Below are positions 4,688-45,470 of a stretch of DNA of 64,000 nucleotides, in pieces. The notes below the pieces were generated by a model that did not search any database, was not told the origin of the DNA, and was given only the letters and a program-made list of their open reading frames with translations. Each line of letters opens with the position of its first letter. Positions within the stretch are counted from its first letter, which is position 1. Origin of the DNA: Pseudoalteromonas ulvae UL12 (GTDB lineage: Bacteria > Pseudomonadota > Gammaproteobacteria > Enterobacterales > Alteromonadaceae); the NCBI RefSeq assembly GCF_014925405.1, contig NZ_AQHJ01000030.1, positions 186,001 to 250,000 of the forward strand. Direction: 5' to 3'. Position numbers and translations under genes: made by a program.

Positions 4688-4702
4688 GATCTGACGGCTC
4701 AA

Positions 4703-4912: not shown

Positions 4913-5155
4913 AATAACGCTCCTCAGTGTGCTAACACTTTTAAGTAATTCACACTTTAACAGTAGCAGATCTTGTGCCACTGTCTAACCAACTGATTTA
5001 CATCGTGATGCGTTATTCGAGAGGTTTCTTGCGAGGCAAAATGCAATTTTTTAGTGCAAATAGCCACTTAGTTGGTGCATTGATGCGCTTACTTTATGGC
5101 AACCCGCGTATTTTTTTATGTTAATCTGCTTTTTATTTGCTCTTAGAGAGTCAGC

Positions 5156-6139: not shown

Positions 6140-7279
6140 TTAAATAGGTACATCTTTTTTAAAAGGCAGTAATGTTAAGCATTGCTGCTGATACTGGCGT
6201 AAATGAGTGGTTTCACGATCAATAAAATGACCAATTGCGGCGCTAAATTCAGGATGGATAATGGCATGATTCGAATAGGTAAATACCGCTTCAAAACCCC
6301 GCATAATTTTATGTTCACCTTGTGCGCCAGCATGAAAACACGCTAACCCATGTTTAATGCAATATTCAATCCCTTGGTAATAACAGAGCTCAAAATGAAG
6401 AAAATTATAATGCTCTTTGGCTCCCCAGTAGCGGCCAAATAGGGTATCGTGACTTTTTAAGCTTAAGGTGGCGGCGATGATATCGTGATCCTTTTTAGCC
6501 ACCATAATAACTAACTTATCGCGCAAGTTGTGCTGCAGCTGACGAAAAAAATTCTGATTGAAATAGCCCAAATGCCCCGAGCGTTTCAAATAGGTTTGTT
6601 GGTAAAAAATCGTGAATTGATCCATAAGCTCTGTGGTAATGTCGTCGCCTTCGAGCCATTGAATGATTAAGTTATCTGCCAATGCCTTTTGTCGCTCTTT
6701 TTTGAGCGTTTTTCGTCGTCGAGCAGTAAAGCGAGCTAAAAAATGCTCAAAATCAAGGTAACCTTGATTGAACCATTGAAATTGCACTCCAATACGTTGC
6801 AAGGTGTTGTGCTCTCTGAGTTGGTCGCTTTGTTCTTTGGGCAAAAAATTCACATGCCAGCCTGACCAACCATGTTGTTGGCAATGATTGTTAAGAGTAT
6901 CGCTAATGTATTGGATTAAGGGAACATTGAGCTCTTGGCAGCCAATGCGCGTGCCACTGACTGGGCTAAAGGGCACGCCACACACCCATTTTGGGTAGTA
7001 TGTTAAGCCATGTTGTTCATAGGCTTCTGCCCACGACCAATCAAACACGTATTCGCCATATGAATGGGTTTTTAAATAACCCGGTAAAATAGCAACGACC
7101 ACAGATTCTTGATAAATCACTAAATGCTGTGCATGCCAGCCAGATTGTATACTCGCAGCGCCACTTTGCTGACAGGCTAGCAAAAAAGCATGGCTAACCA
7201 GCGGATCAGACTCAAACAGGGCATCCCAGATAGCAGGGGCGATATTGCTTAAGTCATCAATAAATTGGTGGTGAAACAT
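6140..7279 (-). CDS. GNAT/FemAB-like acyltransferase (DUF482/COG3146)
   Basis: A 379-residue protein matching the COG3146 family. Visible signatures are the basic RRKTLKKERQKA segment, RYWGAKEHYNFLHFELCYY and GAQGEHKIMRGFEA near the C-terminus. The fold is a double GNAT resembling FemAB peptidoglycan aminoacyl transferases; the substrate is not known. The ATG at 7279 (TAGG about 8 bases upstream) fits the family N-terminus (FIDDLSNIAPAIWDAL) better than the TTG at 7339. Confidence 0.75.
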   Translation of the reverse strand: MFHHQFIDDLSNIAPAIWDALFESDPLVSHAFLLACQQSGAASIQSGWHAQHLVIYQESVVVAILPGYLKTHSYGEYVFDWSWAEAYEQHGLTYYPKWVCGVPFSPVSGTRIGCQELNVPLIQYISDTLNNHCQQHGWSGWHVNFLPKEQSDQLREHNTLQRIGVQFQWFNQGYLDFEHFLARFTARRRKTLKKERQKALADNLIIQWLEGDDITTELMDQFTIFYQQTYLKRSGHLGYFNQNFFRQLQHNLRDKLVIMVAKKDHDIIAATLSLKSHDTLFGRYWGAKEHYNFLHFELCYYQGIEYCIKHGLACFHAGAQGEHKIMRGFEAVFTYSNHAIIHPEFSAAIGHFIDRETTHLRQYQQQCLTLLPFKKDVPI

Positions 7280-7421
7280 ATTAAACCTATCGTCAGTCTG
7301 GTGTTTCTGGAGTGTGAATATTAAACGCTTTGGGTTCAATCACAAATAAGCACCTTGACGTTTGTGGCTATGATTTGCAAGCAATAAACAGTAGCCGTGT
7401 ATTTTAGCTATGAACTTAGAT

Positions 7422-7479
7422 CTGTTGCTTTTTCGAGGTTAAGTTTTATTCAAGATAAAAGCGTTTGTATCGTACAGAG
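7422..7479. repeat. Decayed half-copy of the MITE-like element
   Basis: This 58-base stretch aligns without gaps to the left end of the elements at 27301 and 37054, sharing GAGGTTAA and AGATAAAAG and the TTTTATTC/TTTTGTTC block, with roughly ten mismatches. The right end and the inverted repeat are missing. It sits just downstream of the hybrid kinase stop. Confidence 0.5.
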
Positions 7480-7491
7480 AGCTGTAAAGCT

Positions 7492-10245
7492 TCATAGCTT
7501 AAATTGGCTTAAGCACAGTTTTAATTTTTTGATATCAAGGGGTTTGGCGAGATGAAAGTTAAATCCGACATCGAGTGCATGTGCTTTATCTTCTGGCATG
7601 GCATCTGCGGTTAACGCTATGATTGGGATGTGCTGAAATTCCGGAAGTGTGCGAATCTGTTTTGTGGCCTCATACCCATCAAGGGCGGGCATTTGGCAGT
7701 CCATCAGAATTAAATCAAAATGCTGTTGTTGCAAGGTGTCTATCGCTTCTTGCCCGTCTTTTGTTAGAACCGCTTCAATGTTTAATGTTCGCAACATTTC
7801 TTGAATGACAATTTGATTTATAGGGTTATCTTCGGCGACCAAAATGCGTATGTTCGATAAATCGATGTCAGGTTCAACTTGGCTAGTTGCTTGCGGTGCT
7901 GTAGTCGTTAGCGTGACGCGAAAGGTGAAGGTGCTGCCTAGTCCTTCATCGCTTGTTAATGTCACATCGCCACCCATTAGTAAGCTCAGCTCCTTAGAAA
8001 TAGCCAGACCCAATCCTGTGCCACCAAAGCGGCGTGATGTAGAGTCATCGGCTTGAGTGAAAGCACTAAAAAGAGTTTTGGCGATCTCTGGTTTGATACC
8101 GACCCCAGTGTCAATCACTGCCAAACTTAGAGTGTGCTCTGTGCTGCTTTGAGACAGTACTTGAGCGGTTAACGTTACGCTCCCCGATTGAGTAAATTTA
8201 ATCGCATTGCTACAGAGGTTAATCAGGATTTGCTCAATTCGAACTGGGTCGCCCAAATACCAAGTTGGTTGAGGCAGTGAATTATTAAGGTTCCATTGCA
8301 AACCTTTATTTTGCACAAGGGGTGAAAACATCGCATCAACACGCTGTAAAATGCCCAATAAATCAAACGGAATGTTTTCAAGCTGTAATTTATCTGACTC
8401 AATTTTGGAAATATCTAAAATATCATTGACGATATTCAACAACGAGCTTGAAGAGAGCGCTATTTTGTCAATGTAATCAACTATGGTGTCGGTATCCTTG
8501 GTTTGTTTTGCTAATTGAGAAAAGCCGATGACAGCGTTGAGCGGAGTGCGTATTTCATGACTCATGTTTGCTAAAAAACGACTTTTTGCTTTATTGGCTT
8601 GCTCGGACAGTTGTTTTTCACGTTTTAAATCTTTTGTACGTACTGAGACGAGGTGATTGAGAATCGTTTGTCGGTTATTCATTAATAAAATCAGTAGTAT
8701 GATAAACGCAACAATCAACACTTGAAAGCAAATCAGTAAAATAGACAAATCGTTTGGGTGGTGTGCTAAATAATCGTTCTTGGGTTGTAAGTTCATTAAC
8801 CATGTTTGCCCAGAAAAATTAAACGTAAGAGAAGTGACATTTTCTTTGCCGAGTAATTGCAGATTTTGTACGTTGGTTTTTTGTAATTCATCAAAGCTGT
8901 CGTAGAAGGCGCGGTTTGTACCCGGTTCATACAGTTCTAAATGAAACATATCTTCTTGATAGGGAGTAATAGCTTTACTGAGTAATTCTTTGACTAAAAA
9001 AACACCGGTTGCATAACCTATCAGCTGTTTTTTGTTGGTGGCATTTCTTGTTAATTGATATACAGGGGAAAATAGTAAAAAACCAGCTTCAGGATAATCG
9101 GATTGCACCAATTGAATAATCGAGGTCGCTTGAGGGGTATTTGCTTTTTCAGCCTGAGTCAAAACAGTGTTACGTTTGGGGTTTGAATTAACATTAAAGC
9201 CAAGCGCTTTCTCATTGCCGAGAAGAGGGCTGATCATTTCGACTACTATATAGGGATCGCTCTTGGACAAGGGAGTGCCTTGAATTGAGATTGGGCGCTG
9301 ATAATGTTCAAAAAGGCGTGCCTGCAGGTTTAATAAGGAATCTTTGTCGTTAATCGTGTTCCATGACATTGCTTTGATGCTAGGCTCATCGGCGATTAAC
9401 TGAGCAACATAACTATCAAATTTATCAGTGGTTAAGTTAGGGGTATTTTGAATAAAGCTGGCGAGGCTATGGATGTGCACAAGACTATTGTTGAGCTGAC
9501 GATAGATGGCATTTTCAATCACTTTGGTTTCGCGTTGGCTTAATTTTAATGAATTCAACTCGCTGTTCTTGTGAAAAATAACCGTAGTGAAGGTGACTGA
9601 AAATAATGCAATGCTAACGGTTGCGACAATCAACCAATGACTTTTTTTGTTACCTTTAGGCAGAAACCCTAAATGGTATAGTGCAAATAAAACAGGTGTG
9701 GCTAGTAAGACACCCAGTGAATCACCGAGCCACCAATTTAATACATTCAACCAGTGATGCTCATTACTATAATTAGAGTTAAAAGTGCTGAGCGCATACA
9801 CACCGATATTGGCAGAAATGAGATTGACTCCAATTCCTATCACAAAAATGAACAGCAAAATTTTTAAGCTTGAGGTGCAGATCAGTGGGTCGCCAATGTA
9901 ACGTCGTAATATTACTCCGCCCACGGCCGCTTGCAATGATGCTCCTAATGCTATTAGGCCAACCTCAGCACCTAGCGGGGTGAGGAGTAAAGATAGTTGC
10001 AGATGATCTTGTGCAGTTAAATTGAATGTTGCAGAAGCTAAGAAAATGGCAGGTAAAAATCGCCAGCTCCATAAATACACACCAAACAGTGCAATGCCTG
10101 CTGGAAGCCAAATCAGCACCACCTGAGATTGTGCAGAAAGCCCAGAGAAAAAAGATCCTGAATATAAGTAGCCGAGCATCAAACAGGCATAGAGCAAGGC
10201 ATGTTGAAGAGGAGATAGTTTTAATTTTGGCAAGGTTTGCTCCAT
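7492..10245 (-). CDS. Hybrid sensor histidine kinase with MASE1, CHASE and receiver domains
   Basis: A 917-residue inner-membrane protein. Residues about 10-220 form a MASE1-like set of eight membrane helices, 225-430 a CHASE-like extracytoplasmic sensor, followed by a helix near 490-510. Next come a HisKA domain (phosphoacceptor His in FLANMSHEIRTPLNAVIGFS), an HATPase domain (NAIKFTQSG, DTGVGI, GTGLGLAI) and a C-terminal receiver with its Asp in LILMDCQMPALDGYEATKQ. No output domain or Hpt is present, so phosphate must pass to a protein encoded elsewhere. CHASE domains sense small extracellular molecules; the ligand is unknown. ATG 10245 is preferred over GTG 10269 but neither has a strong ribosome-binding site. 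No cognate regulator is adjacent. Confidence 0.85.
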   Translation of the reverse strand: MEQTLPKLKLSPLQHALLYACLMLGYLYSGSFFSGLSAQSQVVLIWLPAGIALFGVYLWSWRFLPAIFLASATFNLTAQDHLQLSLLLTPLGAEVGLIALGASLQAAVGGVILRRYIGDPLICTSSLKILLFIFVIGIGVNLISANIGVYALSTFNSNYSNEHHWLNVLNWWLGDSLGVLLATPVLFALYHLGFLPKGNKKSHWLIVATVSIALFSVTFTTVIFHKNSELNSLKLSQRETKVIENAIYRQLNNSLVHIHSLASFIQNTPNLTTDKFDSYVAQLIADEPSIKAMSWNTINDKDSLLNLQARLFEHYQRPISIQGTPLSKSDPYIVVEMISPLLGNEKALGFNVNSNPKRNTVLTQAEKANTPQATSIIQLVQSDYPEAGFLLFSPVYQLTRNATNKKQLIGYATGVFLVKELLSKAITPYQEDMFHLELYEPGTNRAFYDSFDELQKTNVQNLQLLGKENVTSLTFNFSGQTWLMNLQPKNDYLAHHPNDLSILLICFQVLIVAFIILLILLMNNRQTILNHLVSVRTKDLKREKQLSEQANKAKSRFLANMSHEIRTPLNAVIGFSQLAKQTKDTDTIVDYIDKIALSSSSLLNIVNDILDISKIESDKLQLENIPFDLLGILQRVDAMFSPLVQNKGLQWNLNNSLPQPTWYLGDPVRIEQILINLCSNAIKFTQSGSVTLTAQVLSQSSTEHTLSLAVIDTGVGIKPEIAKTLFSAFTQADDSTSRRFGGTGLGLAISKELSLLMGGDVTLTSDEGLGSTFTFRVTLTTTAPQATSQVEPDIDLSNIRILVAEDNPINQIVIQEMLRTLNIEAVLTKDGQEAIDTLQQQHFDLILMDCQMPALDGYEATKQIRTLPEFQHIPIIALTADAMPEDKAHALDVGFNFHLAKPLDIKKLKLCLSQFKL

Positions 10246-10488
10246 ATCATCTGTGCTTGTTAGTAGCACTAGGCATGTGACTGTATAAGCGGTTTAATCA
10301 GTTTTGAAGCTACTTTAGGCAGTATAGACTATGTATTTTAGCTATGGCTAATAATCACCTAGAGATGAATGGAGCCGATATTTATTTTTAATTCAGTATG
10401 TTGGTTACTCTCTTATCCAGATTGTATCCAGACCTTAACTAGAGTAAAGGTTAGGTAACTGGGTGGCTTTTTAAAATAAAAACAACGT

Positions 10489-11139
10489 TTAACTTAAGTT
10501 AGCAATTGTTTTATACGCGTTGGTTTTATCATTGGCAGATGGACCTTGTACAGCTATTAAGCCGAGCGTATCGTTTATTTTCAGTAACCCTTGTTGCGCC
10601 GAAGGTGTGAGTGTGTTGAATTCATCGGAGGCAAAAAATTGGTTAAAGCCATATTGTGCCTGTTTGACGTCTTCGTTATTAATCGCTTTACCTTGCTCAA
10701 GCTGATCGAATAATGAGGCGGTCAATTGCAGTGGTGCTAGCAGCTGATGGTCTGGGTTTTCTTTTTTTAACTCTGAGTGGAGTTCGGTGACAAATCCACT
10801 CAGAGATGTGCCGCCTGAGGGTTGTTCAGTTGCTGGGTTTTGGGTTTTTAAGTGCTGGTATTGATCGGCATTAATTAAGCCATTTTTGTGCAATGCGTTG
10901 ATGTAACTTGGCAGCTGTTCGAAAGATATTTTGTTGTTATGGAAAAATTGTGCATTGATAGACTGTAATTTTTTGCCGCGCTCAGATAAATGAATGTACT
11001 GATTAATCGCGTTTTTGTTCTCAGGCGCTGCTTGCGAGGTGCTATCGGTGTTTGCTGCTTGTTGCGATGGTTTAGTTTGCCCTAATTGACTCGGGTTGAG
11101 TTCGGATGCGCTCGATTGGTACGGGTTGATTGCGTTCAT
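10489..11139 (-). CDS. Unknown soluble protein, Gln/Asn-rich N-terminus
   Basis: I do not recognise this 216-residue protein. It has a low-complexity N-terminus rich in Ser, Gln, Thr and Asn (about residues 5-48), then a predicted helical body. No signal peptide or membrane segment is visible. ATG 11139 was chosen over a start 13 codons earlier because the upstream codons look non-coding. It lies downstream of the degenerate HD-GYP gene on the same strand with a 76-base gap, so the two may be co-transcribed. Confidence 0.55.
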   Translation of the reverse strand: MNAINPYQSSASELNPSQLGQTKPSQQAANTDSTSQAAPENKNAINQYIHLSERGKKLQSINAQFFHNNKISFEQLPSYINALHKNGLINADQYQHLKTQNPATEQPSGGTSLSGFVTELHSELKKENPDHQLLAPLQLTASLFDQLEQGKAINNEDVKQAQYGFNQFFASDEFNTLTPSAQQGLLKINDTLGLIAVQGPSANDKTNAYKTIANLS

Positions 11140-11215
11140 AATTGCGTTACTTGGCTTGTGATACACAAAATAAAGCAATTACCGTACCGTTTTAGGGCAA
11201 AATCTTTGGCGCTAC

Positions 11216-12727
11216 TTAATCATCTATTGGCGGCGGTGCGGTGCAGACTTTTCGAGTGCCATCTTTTTTCCAAAAATCCAGCGCGGGTATTTGTACTTCC
11301 CAGACTTCATTGGCATTCCAAACAAATGATCCTTGGTACTTTAGCTTAAAGTACTCATCATCATAGCCGGACAGTTGGCGAGCAGTTTCAAAGAAAATAT
11401 TGTTGGCTGGTGGAATAATAATTTCTTGCTGTGTCATCGACTTGAGTTGACGACGGGTAATTTGTTTACAAATTGGGCTATGCGGATTGTCAGGATACAA
11501 AGAAGACACAATCGCTTGCTCGATGGATCCTGTTTCAGGGTTTAAAAAATAAACTCCGCTACCGAGTGGAAAACGCCCAACCATAGCTAAAAATAACTTA
11601 CTGTATTGGCTGTCTAACTCCCCATCTACAGCGCTTTTTTTAATGGTATCGTAGGCATCGTAAATTCGACGATAGTCAAAATCAGGCTTAGTCGAGACCA
11701 TAAAAGAAGAGTACACCACAGGGATTTTCATTAAACGCTGCAGCTCTACATTGCTGGGGTCTTCTTCATTGAAAAAAGATAACATAAAGTCGAGTTTGGC
11801 TTTTTCGTACTCGGTATAGTCAATTTTTTCTTGATGAGTATTGAAGCGCTTAGGGGGGATCCCAATGCCTGACTTGAGATACATCATCGACTTTTCTTTG
11901 ATAGTGCTGACTAACAAGCTACGCTCATCCGGGGTTAATAAACGATAGCGATCACCGGCAAAAATTTCTTCAACCTCTGGCGAGTAACTGCCAATCCAAA
12001 GGAGTAATGCCGCTTTTGCTATAGGTTTAAGTACTTCTTCACGGTAGGCGGCCATTTCTTCGTTAGAGAGATTATTTTGTTCGATATCCATAAAGCTAGC
12101 AGTTGGATCAGTGAACATATCTTCCATGGCTTGTGTTAAGTAACGGTTTTTAAACCCATGGGTGATGCGAATTTCCTCAAACAGCGCCACCATTAAACCA
12201 GCAATATAAATTGGTTTAAATTTTTCATTGCGCACGCAACGTATTTTTTCATCCGGTAAGGGCGTTGAAAGCACGATTGTCCCTAAAAACTGGCTAAAAA
12301 TACGTTGGTTATTGAGCAAATCGAGCATGTTGTCTGTGAGATGGTCGATATTTTCGTAACGTTTTGTTTGCTGAGCGATCATGTTCTGACGCAGTGTTTG
12401 AAATTGTTTTTTATCGTGCTGCTCATAGCGGTAAAGCTGATCTAGGTATTTCTCTGATGATTTTTGCCCAGCAATAGCCGGTAAATGGCCGTGCTCTTTT
12501 TTATATTTAACAATAATATCAATCTGATGCTCATAAGCATTGAGTTTCTTTTTCAGTTTTTTTAATTGATTAATTTCATCAGGATAGGTACTAAAAAAGA
12601 GGGTGGCGTCTTCGACCACTTTGCGGTGTTGCTGTTGAAACAGGCTAATTTTTTTCGATACCGCACTGGCCATGTTAGGAATAGCGGATAAACGAGCTGT
12701 TTGATACGTTTTTTTATTTTTATTCAT
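11216..12727 (-). CDS. Protein with a probable degenerate HD-GYP domain
   Basis: A 503-residue soluble protein with a basic coiled-coil-like N-terminus. Part of the body reads like an HD-GYP domain that has lost its metal site: KAALLLWIGS stands where active proteins have AALLHDIGK, followed by LTPDERSLLVSTIKEKSMMYL in place of the usual LT-x2-E helix. Then come RRIYDAYDTI and FLAMVGRFPLGSGVYFLNPE, the C-terminal hallmark (vG-x-yPvGS-x-V). The HD and GYP residues are not found, so c-di-GMP hydrolysis is not expected; a binding or scaffold role is possible. The family match is by eye only. ATG 12727 is the first ATG; TTG 12790 is an alternative. Confidence 0.6.
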   Translation of the reverse strand: MNKNKKTYQTARLSAIPNMASAVSKKISLFQQQHRKVVEDATLFFSTYPDEINQLKKLKKKLNAYEHQIDIIVKYKKEHGHLPAIAGQKSSEKYLDQLYRYEQHDKKQFQTLRQNMIAQQTKRYENIDHLTDNMLDLLNNQRIFSQFLGTIVLSTPLPDEKIRCVRNEKFKPIYIAGLMVALFEEIRITHGFKNRYLTQAMEDMFTDPTASFMDIEQNNLSNEEMAAYREEVLKPIAKAALLLWIGSYSPEVEEIFAGDRYRLLTPDERSLLVSTIKEKSMMYLKSGIGIPPKRFNTHQEKIDYTEYEKAKLDFMLSFFNEEDPSNVELQRLMKIPVVYSSFMVSTKPDFDYRRIYDAYDTIKKSAVDGELDSQYSKLFLAMVGRFPLGSGVYFLNPETGSIEQAIVSSLYPDNPHSPICKQITRRQLKSMTQQEIIIPPANNIFFETARQLSGYDDEYFKLKYQGSFVWNANEVWEVQIPALDFWKKDGTRKVCTAPPPIDD

Positions 12728-14477: not shown

Positions 14478-14528
14478 TGCTGCAGTATGATTAAATTAAA
14501 AACTACTTGTTTATCAATGTTTTATTTC

Positions 14529-14544
14529 TGGCACGAAGTTAGCC
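14529..14544 (+). promoter_or_regulatory. Sigma-54 promoter of the efflux operon
   Basis: TGGCACGAAGTTAGCC matches the -24/-12 consensus, with GG (14530-14531) and GC (14542-14543) separated by exactly ten bases. It lies 37 bases before the adaptor gene ATG. A sigma-54 activator is encoded downstream in the same cluster. Confidence 0.75.
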
Positions 14545-14580
14545 TAATGTTCGTACCTTTATAATGATAACTGTTTTTCT

Positions 14581-15846
14581 ATGGATATTGATTTAACGCT
14601 TAACAGCCAGCGTTCACAAAGTCAGCAATATAAAATAATCTGGACGCTGGTGATTGTTTGCTTTGTGCTCTTTTTATATGGATTGAAACAGTGGCTTAGC
14701 CCAATGAGTTTATTGGCTTCATCTGTTCAAATAGCGCAGGTGCAGCAAATAGACTTTGCTGTAAAAATCCGCGGATTTGGTCGCTTAAAAGCCAAGCAGC
14801 AACGTTTTTTAACCAACTCGCATATGGCCACAGTCGAAGCTATTCATGTATATCCAGGCACACGAGTGAGTAAAGAGACAGTGATTGTCAGTTTGGTTAA
14901 CCCCGAGCAAACGCAGCGTTTGTCGGTTGCAAGGCTTGAACTCGCACGGCAAAAAGCTGTGTATAACGAGCAAATTATTAACCAAAAAAGCCAACTACTT
15001 GAGCGGGAATCCACTTTAACTTTACTGCAAAGTGAGCTCGAAAATGCGCAGCTCAGAGCTGAGGCTGAAAGTAAATTAATCGAGCAAGGGATTGTCTCGA
15101 GTTTGGATTACAAGCGTAGCCTTTTACACGTTAAGCAACTTAATCAACGGGTGACGATTGAGCAACAACGTTCGTTGCAATTACAAGAGATGCATCGCGA
15201 ACGGATTAAAGTGCAGCAAGAGTTATTACGGCAGTTTGAGCTCAATTATGTCATGCAAAAACAAGCGTTTGAGCAGCTACATGTTAAAGCGGGGATCGAT
15301 GGCATGCTGCAAGAGCTGAATGTTGAACTCGGTCAAAATTTAAATACCGGTACCCTTCTGGCTGTCGTGGGCTCAGATTCAGCATTAAAAGCTGAGCTAC
15401 TGATCCAGCAGGCCGATGCTGAGAAAATCAGTCTCAATATGGCCGCCAAAGTCAACACTTTTAGTCGAGAGGTTGATGCTACTGTCAGCCGCATTGACCC
15501 AGTTGTTACCGATGGGCGTGTGATGATTGAACTTGATTTGCACGGCGACCTTCCGGCGAATGCTCGACCTGATTTAAGTATCGAAGGTTATGTGATTAGT
15601 GAAGTGATCCCACGAGCGCTGGTTATCAATGTGCCGCATGGCACTAAAGCAAATTCCAAAAATACCCTTTTTAAACTTAACCCACATTCTCATTTAGCCC
15701 AGCCTGAAATAATTGAATTTGGTACACTGAGCGATAATAAAATTCAGCTTCTTCAGGGGGTCGAGGTGGGTGAGCTGCTGATCATTTCGGATTTATCGAA
15801 ATGGCAGCATTTGGCAACAATAAAAATAGAACAGGACAGTTTATGA
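14581..15846 (+). CDS. Periplasmic adaptor (membrane fusion) subunit of ABC efflux system
   Basis: A 421-residue HlyD/MacA-like protein with one N-terminal membrane helix (about residues 21-38), a first lipoyl/beta-barrel half, a long coiled-coil hairpin (about 115-220), the second half (VKAGIDGMLQELNVELGQN) and a beta-barrel region. Such adaptors bridge an inner-membrane ABC transporter and an outer-membrane channel. It overlaps the ATPase gene by four bases (ATGA). No outer-membrane channel gene is in the cluster. Transcription probably starts at the sigma-54 promoter at 14529. Confidence 0.85.
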   Translation: MDIDLTLNSQRSQSQQYKIIWTLVIVCFVLFLYGLKQWLSPMSLLASSVQIAQVQQIDFAVKIRGFGRLKAKQQRFLTNSHMATVEAIHVYPGTRVSKETVIVSLVNPEQTQRLSVARLELARQKAVYNEQIINQKSQLLERESTLTLLQSELENAQLRAEAESKLIEQGIVSSLDYKRSLLHVKQLNQRVTIEQQRSLQLQEMHRERIKVQQELLRQFELNYVMQKQAFEQLHVKAGIDGMLQELNVELGQNLNTGTLLAVVGSDSALKAELLIQQADAEKISLNMAAKVNTFSREVDATVSRIDPVVTDGRVMIELDLHGDLPANARPDLSIEGYVISEVIPRALVINVPHGTKANSKNTLFKLNPHSHLAQPEIIEFGTLSDNKIQLLQGVEVGELLIISDLSKWQHLATIKIEQDSL

Positions 15847-16568
15847 ATACCCAGACACTTATCTCATTAAAAAAAATAGCCAAGATTTATCGCAGTCAAA
15901 ATGTTGAAACCTATGCGCTCAAGCACATTGATCTTGAGGTTAATCAAGGAGATTATTTATGTATCAGCGGCCCTTCAGGCTGTGGAAAATCGACGCTGTT
16001 GTCGTTACTTGGTCTACTGGATAGCCCAAGTGCAGGGCAGTATCTGATTAAAGGAATTGATACCGCTAACTTAGATATGGATAAGCAAGCTGAATTAAGA
16101 AACTTGCACATTGGCTTTATTTTTCAATCATTTAATTTGATTGATGAATTGAGTGTCTTTGATAATGTCGCTTTGCCACTCACTTATCGTGAACCCGCGA
16201 TGAGCGCTGCAGAGATTGAAAAAGCGGTCATTAAAGCGTTAAGCGATGTTGAAATGAGTCACCGAACACAACATAAGCCTAATCAATTATCTGGCGGGCA
16301 GCAGCAACGTATTGCCATTGCTCGGGCATTGGCTGGTAGCCCTAGTATTTTATTAGTGGATGAGCCAACTGGTAACCTTGATTCAAAAAATGGCGATGCG
16401 GTGATGGATTTGCTCGATGCGCTGAATCAAAAAGGCACCACAATTTGTATGGTAACCCACGATTTACGTTACGCAGGGCGAGCGACCACACAGCTTAAGT
16501 TGTTAGATGGCGAAATTATCGGCCACACCACCGCTCGCGCTACTCGCCCAGTCGCTGAGGCGGTGTAA
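15843..16568 (+). CDS. ABC transporter ATP-binding protein (MacB/LolD type)
   Basis: A 241-residue ATPase with Walker A (GPSGCGKST), Q-loop (FIFQSFNLIDEL), signature LSGGQQQRIAIARAL, Walker B (ILLVDEPTGNLDS) and the H-loop (MVTHD). It belongs to the MacB/LolD/FtsE group that powers mechanotransmission-type permeases. ATG 15843 overlaps the adaptor stop, and the gene ends one base before the permease ATG. Confidence 0.92.
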   Translation: MNTQTLISLKKIAKIYRSQNVETYALKHIDLEVNQGDYLCISGPSGCGKSTLLSLLGLLDSPSAGQYLIKGIDTANLDMDKQAELRNLHIGFIFQSFNLIDELSVFDNVALPLTYREPAMSAAEIEKAVIKALSDVEMSHRTQHKPNQLSGGQQQRIAIARALAGSPSILLVDEPTGNLDSKNGDAVMDLLDALNQKGTTICMVTHDLRYAGRATTQLKLLDGEIIGHTTARATRPVAEAV

Positions 16569-30140: not shown

Positions 30141-31349
30141 TTAATGTAATGATTTTCCACAGCCTTTTAGTGACTGTTCGTTTACTTTAAGGCTGACGTG
30201 TGTTTCAAACTTTTCTCCGCTCATACTGTCTGTACAGGGGCCAATAGATAGCTTCATGAGTAAGGTGTTGCTGCCATTTTTGGCTTGGTAGAGAGTGTGG
30301 GCTGCGCTTGAGAGTATTTCAGCATGACTGAAGTGTTCGATCTGTTGACCGTACTGCGTGGTTAAGGTGATATTGGTCTTTTGATTTATGGTCAGGTGCC
30401 AGCCGGGCTCGTTACCGACAGCTCTAAAGTCAGCGCCATTTAGTTTTGCGGCTTGCCATATTGCTTCGCTTGGATTGTTTTTACACGCTTTGTAGACAAT
30501 GTTTCCAAGGGAGAGCATTGCTTCATCTTGATGTTGCCAAAACATGATGTTTTCGAGTTGGTATTTAACCCCAGAACCGCTTTTAACCCGCGGTAGCTTT
30601 ACTGTTTTTTGCGGTAAAAATAGCCAAATATGATCCTTGTCAGCAAGGCGTGCAACAAATTCTATAGCTGGCGAGCATTGGTAGGCATATGGTGTGATTG
30701 GTGTGATTGGTGTGATTGGTGTGATTGGTGTGATTGGTGTGATTGGTGTGATTGGTGTGATTGGTGTGATTGGTGTGATTGGTGTGATTGGTGTGATTGG
30801 TGTGATTGGTGTGATTGGTGTGATTGGTGTGATTGGTGTGATTGGTGTGATTGGTGTGATTGGTGTGATTGGTGTGATTGGTGTGATTGGTGTGATTGGT
30901 GTGATTGGTGTGATTGGTGTGATTGGTGTGATTGGTGTGATTGGTGTGATTGGTGTGATTGGTGTGATTGGTGTGATTGGTGTGATTGGTGTGATTGGTG
31001 TGATTGGTGTGATTGGTGTGATTGGTGTGATTGGTGTGATTGGTGTGATTGGTGTGATTGGTGTGATTGGTGTGATTGGTGTGATTGGTGTGATTGGTGT
31101 GATTGGTGTGATTGGTGTGATTGGTGTGATTGGTGTGATTGGTGTGATTGGTGTGATTGGTGTGATTGGTGTGATTGGTGTGATTGGTGTGATTGGTGTG
31201 ATTGGTGTGATTGGTGTGATTGGTGTGATTGGTGTGATTGGTGTGATTGGTGTGATTGCTTCAGATGTATTGTTCTTTTTTGGGGCGGTATGACAACCGA
31301 TAAGCATTACACAAAGTAACATGGTTAAAAGTGTGAGGGTGTGAGTCAT
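30141..31349 (-). CDS. Lipoprotein with (Ile-Thr-Pro)63 stalk and MliC-like domain
   Basis: A 402-residue protein. A lipoprotein signal peptide (lipobox LIGC, Cys19) is followed by a 12-residue lead, 63 perfect Ile-Thr-Pro repeats (residues 32-220) and a 182-residue C-terminal part. The latter begins as an MliC-like lysozyme-inhibitor domain ([38 protein letters not shown]) and ends in a COG3650-like domain ([13 protein letters not shown]). The repeats should form an extended proline-rich stalk holding the domains away from the membrane. ATG 31349 is preferred over TTG 31355. An orphan copy of its first 30 codons lies at 32083-32178. Confidence 0.8.
30691..31257. repeat. 63 perfect tandem copies of a 9-bp unit
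   Basis: GGTGTGATT is repeated 63 times without a visible mismatch (567 bp) inside the lipoprotein gene; on the coding strand it reads as ATC ACA CCA. As the unit is three codons, changes in copy number keep the reading frame. All six frames are open across it, giving meaningless shadow frames on the other strand. Confidence 0.97.
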
Positions 31350-32087
31350 GGTCAATCCAGTTGTTTAGATGAGTGCTTGTTCTAAAAGCACGTTTAGTGA
31401 CAGTTGGTTAAATGCACAATTGAGCTAGCTGAATGTCAACGCTTTGTGTATCTTAAACCTTTACAACTATTTGAATAAAGGCTTTTTATGGCTGGTGCTA
31501 GTTTATTTTCTTTGCTCGATGATATTGCAACTTTACTTGATGACATCGCGGTGATGAGCAAGGTCGCAGCGAAAAAAACAGCAGGTGTACTCGGAGATGA
31601 TTTGGCGCTTAACGCTCAGCAAGTATCAGGTGTGAGCGCTGACAGAGAATTACCTGTGGTATGGGCTGTTGCAAAAGGGTCAATGCTTAATAAAGTGATT
31701 TTGGTGCCAGCTGCTTTGATTATTAGCGCGTTGATGCCAGCATTAATTTTACCAATGTTGATGCTAGGTGGCGTATATTTGTGCTTTGAAGGTGCTGAAA
31801 AAATAGTTGAGAATTACCTTCATCCTAAAGTGGCCGACTCTGAGATTGCAGCAGAACAAACAGGTGATTGGCAAGAGTACGAGAATACAAAAATTAAAGG
31901 TGCAATTCGCACCGATTTTATTTTATCAGCTGAAATCATAGTCATTTCGTTGGGGACTGTAGCAACCGCTTCGTTGTTATCGCAATTTACGGTGCTGAGT
32001 ATTATTGCCGTGGCGATGACGGTTGGTGTATATGGGTTGGTGGCTTTAATTGTCAAAATTGATGACGCAGGTCTGCATTTAATTAAA
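31259..32087. repeat. 829-bp tandem duplication, first copy
   Basis: This stretch repeats at 32088-32916 with an offset of 829 and no difference seen by eye. It holds the first 30 codons of the lipoprotein gene (minus strand), the divergent intergenic region, and codons 1-200 of the DUF808 gene. The junction (AAAC/TTCAG) shows at most one base of microhomology. Confidence 0.93.
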
Positions 32088-32132
32088 CTTCAGATGTATT
32101 GTTCTTTTTTGGGGCGGTATGACAACCGATAA
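31488..32132 (+). pseudogene. Truncated DUF808 gene (5' copy of duplication)
   Basis: The first 200 residues are the same as in the intact gene at 32317, then the frame runs across the duplication junction into 14 unrelated residues encoded by antisense lipoprotein sequence and stops. It keeps the ribosome-binding site and membrane segments of the N-terminal part but lacks the last third. It may still be translated into a truncated membrane protein; it is most likely non-functional. Confidence 0.85.
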
Positions 32133-32178
32133 GCATTACACAAAGTAACATGGTTAAAAGTGTGAGGGTGTGAGTCAT
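32083..32178 (-). pseudogene. Orphan 5' fragment of the lipoprotein gene
   Basis: The duplication copied the start codon, signal peptide and lipobox of the (ITP)63 lipoprotein. The frame runs 30 codons, adds one Val at the junction and stops, giving a possible 31-residue lipopeptide. Its upstream region is the same as that of the intact gene, so it would be expressed if that promoter lies within the shared 829 bases. Confidence 0.7.
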
Positions 32179-32916
32179 GGTCAATCCAGTTGTTTAGATG
32201 AGTGCTTGTTCTAAAAGCACGTTTAGTGACAGTTGGTTAAATGCACAATTGAGCTAGCTGAATGTCAACGCTTTGTGTATCTTAAACCTTTACAACTATT
32301 TGAATAAAGGCTTTTTATGGCTGGTGCTAGTTTATTTTCTTTGCTCGATGATATTGCAACTTTACTTGATGACATCGCGGTGATGAGCAAGGTCGCAGCG
32401 AAAAAAACAGCAGGTGTACTCGGAGATGATTTGGCGCTTAACGCTCAGCAAGTATCAGGTGTGAGCGCTGACAGAGAATTACCTGTGGTATGGGCTGTTG
32501 CAAAAGGGTCAATGCTTAATAAAGTGATTTTGGTGCCAGCTGCTTTGATTATTAGCGCGTTGATGCCAGCATTAATTTTACCAATGTTGATGCTAGGTGG
32601 CGTATATTTGTGCTTTGAAGGTGCTGAAAAAATAGTTGAGAATTACCTTCATCCTAAAGTGGCCGACTCTGAGATTGCAGCAGAACAAACAGGTGATTGG
32701 CAAGAGTACGAGAATACAAAAATTAAAGGTGCAATTCGCACCGATTTTATTTTATCAGCTGAAATCATAGTCATTTCGTTGGGGACTGTAGCAACCGCTT
32801 CGTTGTTATCGCAATTTACGGTGCTGAGTATTATTGCCGTGGCGATGACGGTTGGTGTATATGGGTTGGTGGCTTTAATTGTCAAAATTGATGACGCAGG
32901 TCTGCATTTAATTAAA
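32088..32916. repeat. 829-bp tandem duplication, second copy
   Basis: Second copy of 31259-32087. It continues without a break into the remaining third of the DUF808 gene, so this copy carries the native right-hand junction. Confidence 0.93.
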
Positions 32917-33237
32917 CATCATCAACCACCCTCATTGGCATGTTATTTTGGGCGATTTTTGTTAGGTTTCGCGCCGTATTTGATGAAAACTTTATCGATA
33001 GTCGGGACCTTGGCGATGTTTATGGTTGGCGGAGGGATTTTAAGTCATGGGGTGCATGCCGTGGCTGAAACAATCGATTCGATGGCGCAAGTTATCAATG
33101 GTTTATTGGTGACGTGGTTACATTGGCTCGCCCCAGCTGTTCTTAATGGTGTGTTTGGTTTTATTGTAGGTTTGATTGTGGTCGCTTGTATGATGGCAGG
33201 CTTAAAAATGAAAGCGCGTTGGTTTAAAAAAATCTAA
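32317..33237 (+). CDS. DUF808 (YedI-like) inner-membrane protein
   Basis: A 306-residue multi-pass membrane protein. The opening [20 protein letters not shown] and [17 protein letters not shown] are characteristic of the DUF808/YedI family, whose role is unknown. About six membrane helices are predicted, with a soluble loop near residues 35-60. AAAGG lies 6 bases before the ATG. It is the intact copy; a truncated copy precedes it in tandem. It is divergent from the lipoprotein fragment. Confidence 0.88.
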   Translation: MAGASLFSLLDDIATLLDDIAVMSKVAAKKTAGVLGDDLALNAQQVSGVSADRELPVVWAVAKGSMLNKVILVPAALIISALMPALILPMLMLGGVYLCFEGAEKIVENYLHPKVADSEIAAEQTGDWQEYENTKIKGAIRTDFILSAEIIVISLGTVATASLLSQFTVLSIIAVAMTVGVYGLVALIVKIDDAGLHLIKHHQPPSLACYFGRFLLGFAPYLMKTLSIVGTLAMFMVGGGILSHGVHAVAETIDSMAQVINGLLVTWLHWLAPAVLNGVFGFIVGLIVVACMMAGLKMKARWFKKI

Positions 33238-40163: not shown

Positions 40164-40183
40164 GGCGTTTAATTTGTAGAATG

Positions 40184-40274
40184 TGGCGGAGAGATAGGGA
40201 TTTGAACCCTAGATAGGCTACAAACCTATGCCGGTTTTCAAGACCGGTGCATTCGACCACTCTGCCATCTCTCC
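40184..40274 (-). tRNA. tRNA-Ser (anticodon UGA), copy 1
   Basis: A 91-base class II tRNA with anticodon loop CTTGAAA in an ACCGG/CCGGT-type stem, a long variable arm, the T-arm GGTTCAAATCC and an encoded CCA. It lies 20 bases upstream of tRNA-Ser(GCU) on the same strand, so both are probably cut from one transcript. A second copy lies at 41844. Confidence 0.95.
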
Positions 40275-40451
40275 GTGGGTGAAGATAATACTTATCCTCT
40301 ATGGGCATGTAAATAGTTAAAATGACTGTTTGCTTAAACTTTAAGCATATTTGGCGATTTTATTGAATTTAATCAGTTTTATATTAAAAATTGCGCAATG
40401 AATAAATGATCACAAATAATGTGTTGTTGTGGCGAGTGCATCTAGGCAGGA

Positions 40452-40484
40452 TAAAATGCCAGCAAGTACAGTCATTACTGGCAT
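40452..40484 (-). terminator. Hairpin after the response regulator gene (copy 1)
   Basis: ATGCCAG and CTGGCAT (40456-40462 and 40478-40484) form a 7-bp stem; on the minus strand TTTTAT follows. The same element is at 42112-42144 and 43143-43175 after the other two regulator copies. Confidence 0.55.
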
Positions 40485-40491
40485 AAATACG

Positions 40492-41175
40492 TTATTCAAC
40501 TAAAACTAAGCGGTATCCAATGCCTCGTTTAGTTTCTATCATGCTCTCGCCTTTGCTTTCGATGGTTAGCTTTTTACGTAATTTACCAATGTACACATCG
40601 ACGACGTTTGTCATTGGGTCCATTTCCATTCCCCAGACATTACTTAAAATACGTTCGCGGCTCAGGTATTTTCCTGTATTTGTCATTAAGAGCTCTAAAA
40701 TAGCCATCTCTTTGACTGTCAGTGAAATTTCTTCGTTATCTAGCGAGACAATATAGCTGGCACGGTCGAAATTAAGTGGACCGAACTCAAGTGTATCTGT
40801 GTTTTTAATTTCGTTAGGGGTGCGACGAGTAACAGCTTCAATTCGTGCGAGTAACTCATCATAAGCAAAGGGCTTTGTGACATAATCATCAGCGCCTAAA
40901 CGCAAGCCTTTGATAATATCTTGCGACTCATCCATTGCGGTTAGCATAATAATGGGGACTTGATTCTTTTTGATTCGAAGCGCTTGGCATACTTCGAGAC
41001 CGTTTAAACTTGGTAGCATGATATCGAGCAAGATAAGTTGAAAATCACCTTCTTGAGCTAACTCAAGACCTTCTCGACCATCGCAGGCTCGAACAATAAA
41101 ATACCCTTCTGCGCGAAGCCCGCGCTCTAAAAAGCTTGCAACGCGATCATCATCTTCTACTAATAATATTCTCAT
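40492..41175 (-). CDS. OmpR/PhoB-family response regulator, copy 1
   Basis: A 227-residue protein identical to the copies at 42152 and 43183. It has a receiver domain (phosphoacceptor Asp51 in LILLDIMLP, Lys in YVTKPF) and a winged-helix DNA-binding domain (LTVKEMAILELLMTNTGKYL, VVDVYIGKLRKKL). It overlaps by 4 bases a kinase gene fragment that lacks the phosphoacceptor His, so it has no linked functional kinase. It lacks the native promoter, and hairpins after the other copies may limit read-through, so expression is doubtful. Confidence 0.85.
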   Translation of the reverse strand: MRILLVEDDDRVASFLERGLRAEGYFIVRACDGREGLELAQEGDFQLILLDIMLPSLNGLEVCQALRIKKNQVPIIMLTAMDESQDIIKGLRLGADDYVTKPFAYDELLARIEAVTRRTPNEIKNTDTLEFGPLNFDRASYIVSLDNEEISLTVKEMAILELLMTNTGKYLSRERILSNVWGMEMDPMTNVVDVYIGKLRKKLTIESKGESMIETKRGIGYRLVLVE

Positions 41176-41825
41176 GCTGTTTCAACACCTAAAATGGGCA
41201 ACAAGACTGTTGCGGTACAGCCTTGACCATGACTATTGGGCTGTAATGAAATATGGCCGCCATGACCATCTATTATGGCTTTTGCTACGGGTAATCCTAA
41301 TCCCGAACCTGGGGTTTGGCCACGATTTCCACGGTAAAAGCGTTCAAAAACTTGCTGCTGTTCTTCTTTGGGGATCCCCATGCCTTGATCGATTACCTTA
41401 ATCACCACTAGCTCTTCACGGATCAGCAGATGAATTTCTGTACAGGTTTGGCTTGGGGAGTAGGCCAGTGCATTTTCTAATAAAATCATCAGTACTTGGC
41501 GTAAACGGCGTTCATCGGCATCAATAAATGCCTCTTGATTGGCCAAAAACAAAGTGATTTCTTGTTGTTGAGCATTGGCTTTTCGTTGATAAACTTGCTG
41601 GATGTCGGTCAGTAAATTTTTTAAATCAAACTGATGGATGTTGAGTTTTAATTGCCCGGCACTTGAGCGGGCAACCAGCATTAAATCTTCGATTAAGGCG
41701 GTTGTATGTTGTACCTCATCGACCACGCGCTGCAATACTTCTTTGTAGTCTGGCAATTGAGCGGATTGGCTGCGTAATAATACTTCGGACTCACCACGAA
41801 TGATGGTCAGTGGTGTGCGCAGTTG
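41172..41825 (-). pseudogene. Sensor kinase 3' fragment (from residue 319/320)
   Basis: It matches the C-terminal 216 residues of the kinase at 43863. The break falls inside the codon for Glu319, one residue after the phosphoacceptor His318, so the ATPase domain is kept and the phosphorylated His is lost. An in-frame stop (TAA) lies just upstream of the junction. The first possible start is a TTG at 41756, giving an isolated ATP-binding domain of 194 residues, without a visible ribosome-binding site. Confidence 0.88.
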
Positions 41826-41843
41826 CGTTTAATTTGTAGAATG

Positions 41844-41934
41844 TGGCGGAGAGATAGGGATTTGAACCCTAGATAGGCTACAAACCTATGCCGGTTTTCA
41901 AGACCGGTGCATTCGACCACTCTGCCATCTCTCC
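41844..41934 (-). tRNA. tRNA-Ser (anticodon UGA), copy 2
   Basis: Same as 40184-40274 at an offset of 1660, with the same flanks. All parts of the tRNA, including the encoded CCA, are intact. Unlike copy 1 it is not followed by tRNA-Ser(GCU) but by the kinase fragment, so processing of its 3' end may differ. Confidence 0.93.
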
Positions 41935-42151
41935 GTGGGTGAAGATAATACTTATCCTCTATGGGCATGTAAATAGTTAAAATGACTGTTTGCTTAAACT
42001 TTAAGCATATTTGGCGATTTTATTGAATTTAATCAGTTTTATATTAAAAATTGCGCAATGAATAAATGATCACAAATAATGTGTTGTTGTGGCGAGTGCA
42101 TCTAGGCAGGATAAAATGCCAGCAAGTACAGTCATTACTGGCATAAATACG

Positions 42152-42835
42152 TTATTCAACTAAAACTAAGCGGTATCCAATGCCTCGTTTAGTTTCTATC
42201 ATGCTCTCGCCTTTGCTTTCGATGGTTAGCTTTTTACGTAATTTACCAATGTACACATCGACGACGTTTGTCATTGGGTCCATTTCCATTCCCCAGACAT
42301 TACTTAAAATACGTTCGCGGCTCAGGTATTTTCCTGTATTTGTCATTAAGAGCTCTAAAATAGCCATCTCTTTGACTGTCAGTGAAATTTCTTCGTTATC
42401 TAGCGAGACAATATAGCTGGCACGGTCGAAATTAAGTGGACCGAACTCAAGTGTATCTGTGTTTTTAATTTCGTTAGGGGTGCGACGAGTAACAGCTTCA
42501 ATTCGTGCGAGTAACTCATCATAAGCAAAGGGCTTTGTGACATAATCATCAGCGCCTAAACGCAAGCCTTTGATAATATCTTGCGACTCATCCATTGCGG
42601 TTAGCATAATAATGGGGACTTGATTCTTTTTGATTCGAAGCGCTTGGCATACTTCGAGACCGTTTAAACTTGGTAGCATGATATCGAGCAAGATAAGTTG
42701 AAAATCACCTTCTTGAGCTAACTCAAGACCTTCTCGACCATCGCAGGCTCGAACAATAAAATACCCTTCTGCGCGAAGCCCGCGCTCTAAAAAGCTTGCA
42801 ACGCGATCATCATCTTCTACTAATAATATTCTCAT
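42152..42835 (-). CDS. OmpR/PhoB-family response regulator, copy 2
   Basis: The middle of three identical 227-residue copies (see 43183 for the linked kinase). The upstream kinase sequence is reduced to the last 44 or so codons, so this copy is also separated from the native promoter. All receiver and winged-helix residues are intact. If transcribed from read-through it would raise the dose of the same regulator. Confidence 0.85.
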   Translation of the reverse strand: MRILLVEDDDRVASFLERGLRAEGYFIVRACDGREGLELAQEGDFQLILLDIMLPSLNGLEVCQALRIKKNQVPIIMLTAMDESQDIIKGLRLGADDYVTKPFAYDELLARIEAVTRRTPNEIKNTDTLEFGPLNFDRASYIVSLDNEEISLTVKEMAILELLMTNTGKYLSRERILSNVWGMEMDPMTNVVDVYIGKLRKKLTIESKGESMIETKRGIGYRLVLVE

Positions 42836-42967
42836 GCTGTTTCAACACCTAAAATGGGCAACAAGACTGTTGCGGTACAGCCTTGACCATGACTATTGGG
42901 CTGTAATGAAATATGGCCGCCATGACCATCTATTATGGCTTTTGCTACGGGTAATCCTAATCCCGAA
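42832..42967 (-). pseudogene. Sensor kinase 3' fragment (last ~44 codons)
   Basis: It matches the end of the kinase gene from about residue 491 (GLGLPVAKAIIDGHGGH onward) and breaks off at the 1031-bp duplication junction. No start codon with a ribosome-binding site is seen. Confidence 0.85.
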
Positions 42968-43998
42968 GGGTGAAGATAATACTTATCCTCTATGGGCATG
43001 TAAATAGTTAAAATGACTGTTTGCTTAAACTTTAAGCATATTTGGCGATTTTATTGAATTTAATCAGTTTTATATTAAAAATTGCGCAATGAATAAATGA
43101 TCACAAATAATGTGTTGTTGTGGCGAGTGCATCTAGGCAGGATAAAATGCCAGCAAGTACAGTCATTACTGGCATAAATACGTTATTCAACTAAAACTAA
43201 GCGGTATCCAATGCCTCGTTTAGTTTCTATCATGCTCTCGCCTTTGCTTTCGATGGTTAGCTTTTTACGTAATTTACCAATGTACACATCGACGACGTTT
43301 GTCATTGGGTCCATTTCCATTCCCCAGACATTACTTAAAATACGTTCGCGGCTCAGGTATTTTCCTGTATTTGTCATTAAGAGCTCTAAAATAGCCATCT
43401 CTTTGACTGTCAGTGAAATTTCTTCGTTATCTAGCGAGACAATATAGCTGGCACGGTCGAAATTAAGTGGACCGAACTCAAGTGTATCTGTGTTTTTAAT
43501 TTCGTTAGGGGTGCGACGAGTAACAGCTTCAATTCGTGCGAGTAACTCATCATAAGCAAAGGGCTTTGTGACATAATCATCAGCGCCTAAACGCAAGCCT
43601 TTGATAATATCTTGCGACTCATCCATTGCGGTTAGCATAATAATGGGGACTTGATTCTTTTTGATTCGAAGCGCTTGGCATACTTCGAGACCGTTTAAAC
43701 TTGGTAGCATGATATCGAGCAAGATAAGTTGAAAATCACCTTCTTGAGCTAACTCAAGACCTTCTCGACCATCGCAGGCTCGAACAATAAAATACCCTTC
43801 TGCGCGAAGCCCGCGCTCTAAAAAGCTTGCAACGCGATCATCATCTTCTACTAATAATATTCTCATGCTGTTTCAACACCTAAAATGGGCAACAAGACTG
43901 TTGCGGTACAGCCTTGACCATGACTATTGGGCTGTAATGAAATATGGCCGCCATGACCATCTATTATGGCTTTTGCTACGGGTAATCCTAATCCCGAA
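42968..43998. repeat. 1031-bp nested tandem duplication, second copy
   Basis: Second copy of 41937-42967. It continues into the intact kinase gene and therefore carries the native junction on that side. Confidence 0.92.
43183..43866 (-). CDS. OmpR/PhoB-family response regulator, copy 3 (kinase-linked)
   Basis: A 227-residue regulator: receiver domain with acidic VEDDD, Asp51 and Lys in YVTKPFAYDELL, then an OmpR-type winged helix (about residues 130-225). This is the only copy directly behind an intact kinase gene, overlapping its stop by four bases (ATGA), so the pair is probably translationally coupled. Its targets are unknown. A hairpin with a short T-run follows at 43143-43175. Confidence 0.9.
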   Translation of the reverse strand: MRILLVEDDDRVASFLERGLRAEGYFIVRACDGREGLELAQEGDFQLILLDIMLPSLNGLEVCQALRIKKNQVPIIMLTAMDESQDIIKGLRLGADDYVTKPFAYDELLARIEAVTRRTPNEIKNTDTLEFGPLNFDRASYIVSLDNEEISLTVKEMAILELLMTNTGKYLSRERILSNVWGMEMDPMTNVVDVYIGKLRKKLTIESKGESMIETKRGIGYRLVLVE

Positions 43999-45470
43999 CC
44001 TGGGGTTTGGCCACGATTTCCACGGTAAAAGCGTTCAAAAACTTGCTGCTGTTCTTCTTTGGGGATCCCCATGCCTTGATCGATTACCTTAATCACCACT
44101 AGCTCTTCACGGATCAGCAGATGAATTTCTGTACAGGTTTGGCTTGGGGAGTAGGCCAGTGCATTTTCTAATAAAATCATCAGTACTTGGCGTAAACGGC
44201 GTTCATCGGCATCAATAAATGCCTCTTGATTGGCCAAAAACAAAGTGATTTCTTGTTGTTGAGCATTGGCTTTTCGTTGATAAACTTGCTGGATGTCGGT
44301 CAGTAAATTTTTTAAATCAAACTGATGGATGTTGAGTTTTAATTGCCCGGCACTTGAGCGGGCAACCAGCATTAAATCTTCGATTAAGGCGGTTGTATGT
44401 TGTACCTCATCGACCACGCGCTGCAATACTTCTTTGTAGTCTGGCAATTGAGCGGATTGGCTGCGTAATAATACTTCGGACTCACCACGAATGATGGTCA
44501 GTGGTGTGCGCAGTTCATGGCTAATATCAGCTAAAAACTGTCGACGTTGCTGGTCGACTAAGGCTAGCTTTTGATTTGATCGCTCAAGATCTTGTGTTCG
44601 CTGTGCGACTTTTTCTTCAAGTGAGCGTTTAGCTTCATTTAGCTGCGCTTGTTGGCTGGCCAGTTGTGACGCCATGCTGTTTAGTGCATCACCTAAGTAC
44701 TGAAATTCAAAATCGCTTAGGGCATTAATTCGATGAGCGAGGTTACCATCGCTGTATTGGCTGGTTGCAGTATGCAATTGTTTGGTGGCATCGTTAATGC
44801 GGCGCCAAAAATACCAAAAGGTCATTAAAGTAAATAAGCTCATCGCGGCAAGAGCGGCAGCCAGTGCTTGATTGCTAAAATGATAAAGAGTGTTTACATC
44901 GTTGCGAATTTGTTGTGCCAGAGCTTGTTCTTGCGACACGGCTTTATTAATTAGTTGATTAAACTCTTTATCGACATTTTGCTTTTGTAGCAAATTGAAA
45001 AGCTGATTGGCATCGACGAGTTTATCCTGCGCGACTAAAAACTTTATTTCATTGTTAGTATTAATGATTTGCTCGACTTTTTGCGTAATGAGGTCGAGCA
45101 TTTGTAGTTCTTTATTGGCGCTATCTAAATGACTAAGGGCGATTTTTTTTAATAAATTATCACGCACAGAAAATAATGCGCCGCGTAATTGTTGTTCATT
45201 TTCTTCTCGTAACTGTGGGGTTTGTACTCGACCGGTGCGGACAATTTCGCCCATAGCGATGAGTTTTTCGAGACTGAGTTTTGCGATTAGAGAGTATTGC
45301 GTGAGTACTTCGTGAGTGAGATCTGATTGCTTGGCGTGTTTGCTGTAGCGTTCTGAGCTATCGAAATACAGCCAGCCGATAAGGCAGCTAAACAAAAAAA
45401 TCACACTAAAAGCAAATAAGAGCTTATGTGTGAGGCGGCTATGGAGATGTCTTTTTTGTTTCGGCTTCAA
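43863..45470 (-). CDS. Sensor histidine kinase with helical periplasmic domain and HAMP
   Basis: A 535-residue inner-membrane kinase. It has a membrane helix at about 14-35, a helical periplasmic sensor of about 165 residues, a second helix (about 203-223) and a HAMP domain (about 224-278). A coiled coil leads to the phosphoacceptor His318 (FLADISHELRTPLTIIRGE), and the ATPase domain has NALAYSP, DQGMGIP and GSGLGLPVAKA. TTG 45470 is the only reasonable start, with CGGAA upstream. The signal is unknown. Two 3' fragments of this gene lie downstream because of tandem duplications. Confidence 0.9.
   Translation of the reverse strand: MKPKQKRHLHSRLTHKLLFAFSVIFLFSCLIGWLYFDSSERYSKHAKQSDLTHEVLTQYSLIAKLSLEKLIAMGEIVRTGRVQTPQLREENEQQLRGALFSVRDNLLKKIALSHLDSANKELQMLDLITQKVEQIINTNNEIKFLVAQDKLVDANQLFNLLQKQNVDKEFNQLINKAVSQEQALAQQIRNDVNTLYHFSNQALAAALAAMSLFTLMTFWYFWRRINDATKQLHTATSQYSDGNLAHRINALSDFEFQYLGDALNSMASQLASQQAQLNEAKRSLEEKVAQRTQDLERSNQKLALVDQQRRQFLADISHELRTPLTIIRGESEVLLRSQSAQLPDYKEVLQRVVDEVQHTTALIEDLMLVARSSAGQLKLNIHQFDLKNLLTDIQQVYQRKANAQQQEITLFLANQEAFIDADERRLRQVLMILLENALAYSPSQTCTEIHLLIREELVVIKVIDQGMGIPKEEQQQVFERFYRGNRGQTPGSGLGLPVAKAIIDGHGGHISLQPNSHGQGCTATVLLPILGVETA

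Follow-up and report, generated by a model that had tools for sequence, protein, structure and literature searches.

The MliC/PliC proteins are inhibitors of c-type lysozymes (PF09864, COG3895), and most proteins of COG3895 carry no other domain, according to the accessible part of PMC2267010. In MliC of Pseudomonas aeruginosa, the residues touching lysozyme are S89 and K103, and the family features two motifs: the SxSGAxY loop with the contact Ser and the YxxxTKG loop with the contact Lys, the latter being K103 in P. aeruginosa MliC and in SliC (accessible part of PMC6033465). SliC of Neisseria gonorrhoeae is a surface-displayed MliC-type lipoprotein and needs S83 and K103 for inhibition, as described in the same part of that article. 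A layout with two domains is found in the MliC lipoproteins P0129 (Methylococcales), P0128 (Thiotrichales), and P0039 (a betaproteobacterial MAG) and occurs in several proteobacterial groups; a tested function for this layout was not found in the accessible portions of the literature. The neisserial Lip/Laz proteins are lipoproteins with short tandem AAEAP-repeat linkers.

The lipoprotein considered here is encoded in a window of 64,000 nucleotides of Pseudoalteromonas ulvae UL12 (contig NZ_AQHJ01000030.1, positions 186,001 to 250,000). Its gene lies on the minus strand at 30141-31355, as judged by reading frame, Pfam, and homologues. The first possible start is a TTG at 31355, which gives a reading of 404 residues. 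The ATG at 31349, two codons after the TTG, is probably the start used and fits the start of the homologue P0121; it yields a lipoprotein of 402 residues with 63 Ile-Thr-Pro (ITP) units. The product features, in this order, a signal peptide, the sequence LIGC, a 12-residue spacer, (ITP)63, the residues YAYQC, and a folded part consisting of the MliC domain and a second β-rich domain. By its residues, the N terminus reads as a signal peptide that ends in the Cys of LIGC—which we take to be a lipobox—and has an n-region without Lys or Arg. A loose lipobox pattern is present in 39 of 56 aligned rows (55 of the 185 listed homologues and the folded part of the window protein), at times within the signal peptide; the row of the window protein has no N terminus in this alignment. 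The Pfam domain MliC (PF09864) is matched at residues 225-284 of the 404-residue reading with 40.2 bits at a cutoff of 22. The open frame, the lipobox-like LIGC, and this match bear out the sequence-only reading, which had described an intact gene with signal peptide, lipobox, and MliC-like domain and had named the MliC profile as a check. Pfam matches to Bflower and Amelogenin were rejected, as they have a low-complexity look and no stretch passes alone. In two protein searches, the 404-residue protein was not among the best 120 of 123 and the best 120 of 128 matches.

The folded part (30144-30689, minus strand; Pfam and predicted structure) was modeled as two β-rich domains with a mean pLDDT of 93.5 in the best of five models and of 84-88 in the other four. 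A search with a 14-row profile matches the first domain to 2f09 (YdhA), 3f6z (P. aeruginosa MliC), and, weakly, 4mir. When the model of both domains was searched with Foldseek, nothing was obtained at E ≤ 0.001; 3f6z_B (P. aeruginosa MliC) appears at rank 42 with a probability of 1.00 and a TM score of 0.54 by target, and no match puts a name on the second domain. In the two-domain MliC family, this second domain is marked by a conserved GNEPGW and, at the C terminus, by a GCG motif.

Compared with the MliC/PliC inhibitors, the window protein is alike in its domain match, paired Cys, SxSG motif, and lipobox but features an extra C-terminal β domain, a His in place of the contact Lys, and—as assembled—a very long linker. 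The Cys pair of the barrel (C42 and C106 in the numbering of P0121) is invariant in 14 aligned rows. The counterpart of SxSGAxY is SGSGVKY, in which the Ser and the SG are kept and Ala is replaced by Val; the second Ser of the motif occurs in 54 of the 56 aligned rows, and the position of the Ala is occupied by A in 22 and by V in 16. The contact Lys of YxxxTKG is present in 45 of the 56 rows, and its position holds a His in the window protein and in the three closest homologues among the matches listed. In addition, the cutoffs of the NCBIfam inhibitor equivalogs are not reached: NF008475 scores 19.3 bits for P0121, below its cutoff of 168, and does not match the folded piece of the window protein. 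The protein can be described from its sequence as an MliC-domain lipoprotein of the two-domain type with putative inhibitor activity, a function that is uncertain because the contact Lys is a His here. SliC is likewise a lipoprotein with an MliC-type domain; the window protein differs in lacking the Lys, and a repeat linker is not mentioned for SliC in the accessible part of PMC6033465. The two-domain lipoproteins P0129, P0128, and P0039 share 42-48% identity with the window protein over 99-100% of its folded part and differ in having short linkers without ITP repeats. In Lip/Laz as in the window protein, lipid anchor and domain are joined by a linker of low complexity that contains proline; repeat, domain, and organism are different, and the likeness is one of layout. 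A narrow literature search on repeat lipoproteins found no paper, and neither did one on tandem repeats with slipped-strand mispairing in Pseudoalteromonas.

The linker is encoded by 63 copies of GGTGTGATT at 30691-31257 (567 bp, no mismatches), which are read on the minus strand in frame as ATC ACA CCA, and the periodic stretch around this tract spans 30690-31258. The 63 perfect 9-bp repeats given by the sequence-only reading are, hence, exact in the letters of the window, and its remark that a unit of three codons keeps the frame holds as well, the gene being open through all 63 units. A chance origin is ruled out by 567 perfect bp. At least three consecutive units occur nowhere else in the genome; within the genus, the 107 other genomes lack the 20-base, two-unit pattern, and 294 further genomes sampled from the order lack the 27-base one. 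A phage origin was rejected: The viral contigs scanned for the 27-base pattern gave no exact match, and the locus adjoins a DUF808 gene in all four congeneric loci with an orthologue. A plus-strand gene across the tract was rejected too—two open frames are present there, and they are expected because the 9-bp unit repeats its own codons.

Searches for homologues covered 5.8 billion proteins. The closest homologue among the matches listed is P0121, a protein of 219 residues with 95% identity and a linker of 22 residues that contains one ITP; P0122 (82% identity) and P0123 (75%) carry ITT at this place. ITPITP was found in none of the 185 distinct homologues among the matches listed (the check was run across 305 proteins). 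Where a Cys precedes the barrel, which is the case in 48 of the 56 aligned rows, the last one is 11-35 residues away. Among 108 genomes of the genus, a search found full-length matches in 5, one of which is the genome of the window, and the lipoprotein is accessory in the genus; the remaining 31 of the 36 matches are partial (query residues 2-87 of 182), some with stops. A scan of genome contigs identified two betaproteobacterial MAG loci with an orthologue. None of the six orthologues (four congeneric and the two from betaproteobacterial MAGs) carries an ITP array. Since the relatives lack the array and have short linkers, the sequences indicate that the array is new in the lineage of the window on any reading. 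This agrees with the recent expansion proposed earlier, as no more than one ITP is present in the short linkers of the closest relatives among the matches listed.

The sole close comparison is P0121, with one ITP against 63 as assembled. This great difference in length to one near relative, the preservation of the frame by the 9-bp unit, and the linker being the position free in length in this family would suit a contingency locus, in which the copy number steps by three codons and tunes the distance of the MliC-like domain from the membrane. Such a locus is very improbable here: A second allele with an array was not found, the protein is accessory in the genus, and nothing in the analysis shows selection on length.

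An exact tandem duplication, which the sequence-only reading had missed, starts 1-2 bp beyond the tract. It has a period of 829 bp and 830 matching bases, with 1 bp common at the junction. Copy 1 (31259-32088) contains the 5' end of the lipoprotein gene, the intergenic region, and the first 201 codons of DUF808, and copy 2 (32088-32917) matches it exactly. On the plus strand, a truncated DUF808 frame of 201 codons and 13 junction codons is located at 31488-32132, and the intact gene of the DUF808 membrane protein, divergent from that of the lipoprotein, at 32317-33237 (both by reading frame and Pfam). These two frames are the only matches to the DUF808 protein in the genome. Lipoprotein and DUF808 are divergent neighbors in all four congeneric loci with a full-length orthologue, and each congeneric locus examined (approximately 3.5 kb each) has one DUF808 frame. 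The truncated frame is probably an assembly product. A close strain exists, since the DUF808 protein P0186—encoded on a contig of 294,818 bp—differs from that of the window at only 3 of 306 residues.

Tandem repeats longer than the word length K form a loop in the assembly graph, and without spanning reads, their copy number is only speculation, as stated in the accessible part of PMC4237348. Gap closers often insert sequence that is unlike the true one, according to the accessible part of the DENTIST article (PMC8848313). The short-read misassemblies of tandem repeats in the accessible part of PMC4237348 resemble the present case in a wrong copy number at the array; the example given there lost copies, whereas array and flank in the window appear over-written. 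Likely, the ITP tract is a real microsatellite, shorter than recorded and probably of moderate length, that was miscounted and had its flank written twice; the count of 63 and the cut-short DUF808 copy most likely arose in assembly. The gene encodes a lipid-anchored two-domain protein with an MliC-like β-barrel, a second β domain, and, between the lipidated Cys and the barrel, a poorly conserved linker that normally has 11-35 residues. In the course of events that we infer—assembly method, closure step, true array length, and slippage as the cause included—the 9-bp ITP unit in this linker, present in one copy or none in the closest relatives, would have expanded in this strain, probably by slippage, and the expanded array would have outgrown the word of the assembler, so that a short-read graph could not count the copies. 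At closure, an arbitrary number of 63 copies would have been entered into the contig, and the 829 bp of the distal flank would have been entered twice.

The short linkers of the relatives, with a single ITP in P0121 and no ITPITP among the matches listed, argue for this miscounting, and so does the exact duplication, which shares 1 bp at its junction and starts 1 bp past the periodic stretch. Further support comes from the draft genome itself (G000; 34 contigs, 4.74 Mb). All eight contig-end pairs with a common start of at least 15 bases share exactly 61 bp and then diverge (46 usable ends); the constant overlap points to a word-based (de Bruijn) short-read assembly with k=61 and argues for the misassembly. 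Contig 20 counts against it, as its own two ends overlap by 57 bp, unlike the 61 bp elsewhere. In 1,080,969 non-N bases of the genome, with the window included and approximately 19 kb represented twice, we counted perfect arrays that have units of 2-40 bp and span at least 62 bp. They have lengths of 63, 66, 66, 71, and 77 bp, and then of 375, 498, 531, and 569 bp, with none of 78-374 bp in this sample. All four arrays above 300 bp (three loci) are accompanied by an exactly duplicated flank, the edge of which is at most 9 bp away from the array: the ITP tract (829 bp) and three arrays on contig 25 (segments of 1681, 287, 409, and 272 bp). Together with the empty range of lengths below them, these flanks argue for misassembly. 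On contig 25, the GTTTGACT array is present twice, once with 61 bp and once with 375 bp, between duplicated flanks that are the same but for 6 bases, which points in the same direction. The independent array cases number three, since a single repeat-rich locus of contig 25 accounts for two of the four long arrays, and the duplicated segments at this locus might be natural, which would count against the misassembly.

A second site in the window resembles a misassembly as well and adds to the case for the first. The stretch 40165-44515 is made up of three exact pieces that overlap in content and directly follow one another—40165-41824, 41825-42967 (equal to 40165-41307), and 42968-44515 (equal to 40277-41824)—with 0 bp common at the joins and no array. 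It holds three identical response regulators, an intact histidine kinase, and a cut copy of the kinase. The three regulators are the only matches of 100% among 84, the next best being at 38-40%. Other exact repeats in the sample of the genome may be natural: a pair of 244 bp, a pair of 343 bp whose members are 2.9 kb apart, and periodic repeats with units of 111, 164, and 233 bp. Because a k=61 graph alone should not resolve arrays of 111-, 164-, and 233-bp units, longer-range data may have been used, and the 63 copies could then be a measured number.

Another reading would be a cell with almost no repeat, i.e., one to three ITP units as in the homologue of 95% identity, with the whole array being a product of closure. 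The single ITP of P0121 and the ITT of P0122 and P0123 fit this, but a loop in the graph should need reads that are periodic beyond a word—approximately 7 units at k=61—although fewer periodic units would suffice for a gap filler that uses a shorter word; we consider a near-absence of the repeat quite improbable.

Two congeners assembled in two contigs each, G100 and G044, served as a small control, with 400 kb of each analyzed by the same script. Exact near duplications of at least 200 bp amount to one in G100 (periodic, with a 218-bp unit) and none in G044, and this scarcity argues for misassembly in the draft. Perfect arrays number three in G044 (100, 127, and 158 bp) and none in G100. Perfect microsatellites are, thus, real in the genus, which counts against misassembly; arrays of 375-569 bp are absent from the 800 kb of both congeners, and such arrays with copied flanks were seen in this draft only. 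If the assembly is right, a very recent expansion by slippage to approximately 63 copies and a tandem duplication triggered at its edge are both real, and the protein bears a proline-rich stalk of 189 residues. In favor of this, no letter deviates and all 63 units keep the frame, the G044 microsatellites of 100-158 bp set a precedent, and a break at the repeat might explain why the edge of the duplication meets the tract; a fragile edge of the tract could truly have undergone the 829-bp duplication in recent times, which counts against the misassembly. However, the other arrays show like patterns, 40165-44515 shows the same end-to-end exact pieces without any array, the contig ends overlap by 61 bp, the joins share just 0-1 bp, and arrays of 375-569 bp occur in this draft only, which makes it unlikely that expansion and duplication are both real. 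The reality of the 63-unit stalk, as assumed by the sequence-only reading, is not supported in view of the constant 61-bp overlaps of contig ends, the 829-bp flank duplication, and the like defects at the other long arrays sampled.

It is unlikely that the cell itself carries a stalk of tens of ITP units, born within one species from a single unit and placing the MliC-like domain on a tether of variable length that, if extended, would possibly be longer than the periplasm is wide. If the length were real, the locus would be a very clean natural case in which a single codon triplet grew into a tether within one species, and stalk length could be tested against function. As it is, the locus serves as a warning that long, perfect repeats within the coding sequence of a draft genome can stem from the assembly; the tell-tales—contig ends with a constant overlap and arrays whose edges adjoin exact copies of the flank—are visible in the assembly by itself.

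Further repeat loci were observed along the way. The contig 25 locus (L059) carries perfect arrays of 18-bp and 8-bp units with lengths of 375-531 bp and exactly duplicated flanks at 6712-12049 and 14500-16095, the 8-bp array having one copy of 61 bp and another of 375 bp. On contig 21 (L076), an exact 233-bp unit is repeated approximately 7 times at 4359-6083, and it is either a real repeat gene or a closure product. The G044 microsatellites have units of 7, 8, and 6 bp (L162, 4495-4594; L164, 6605-6731; and L169, 14931-15088, respectively) and are possible variable loci.
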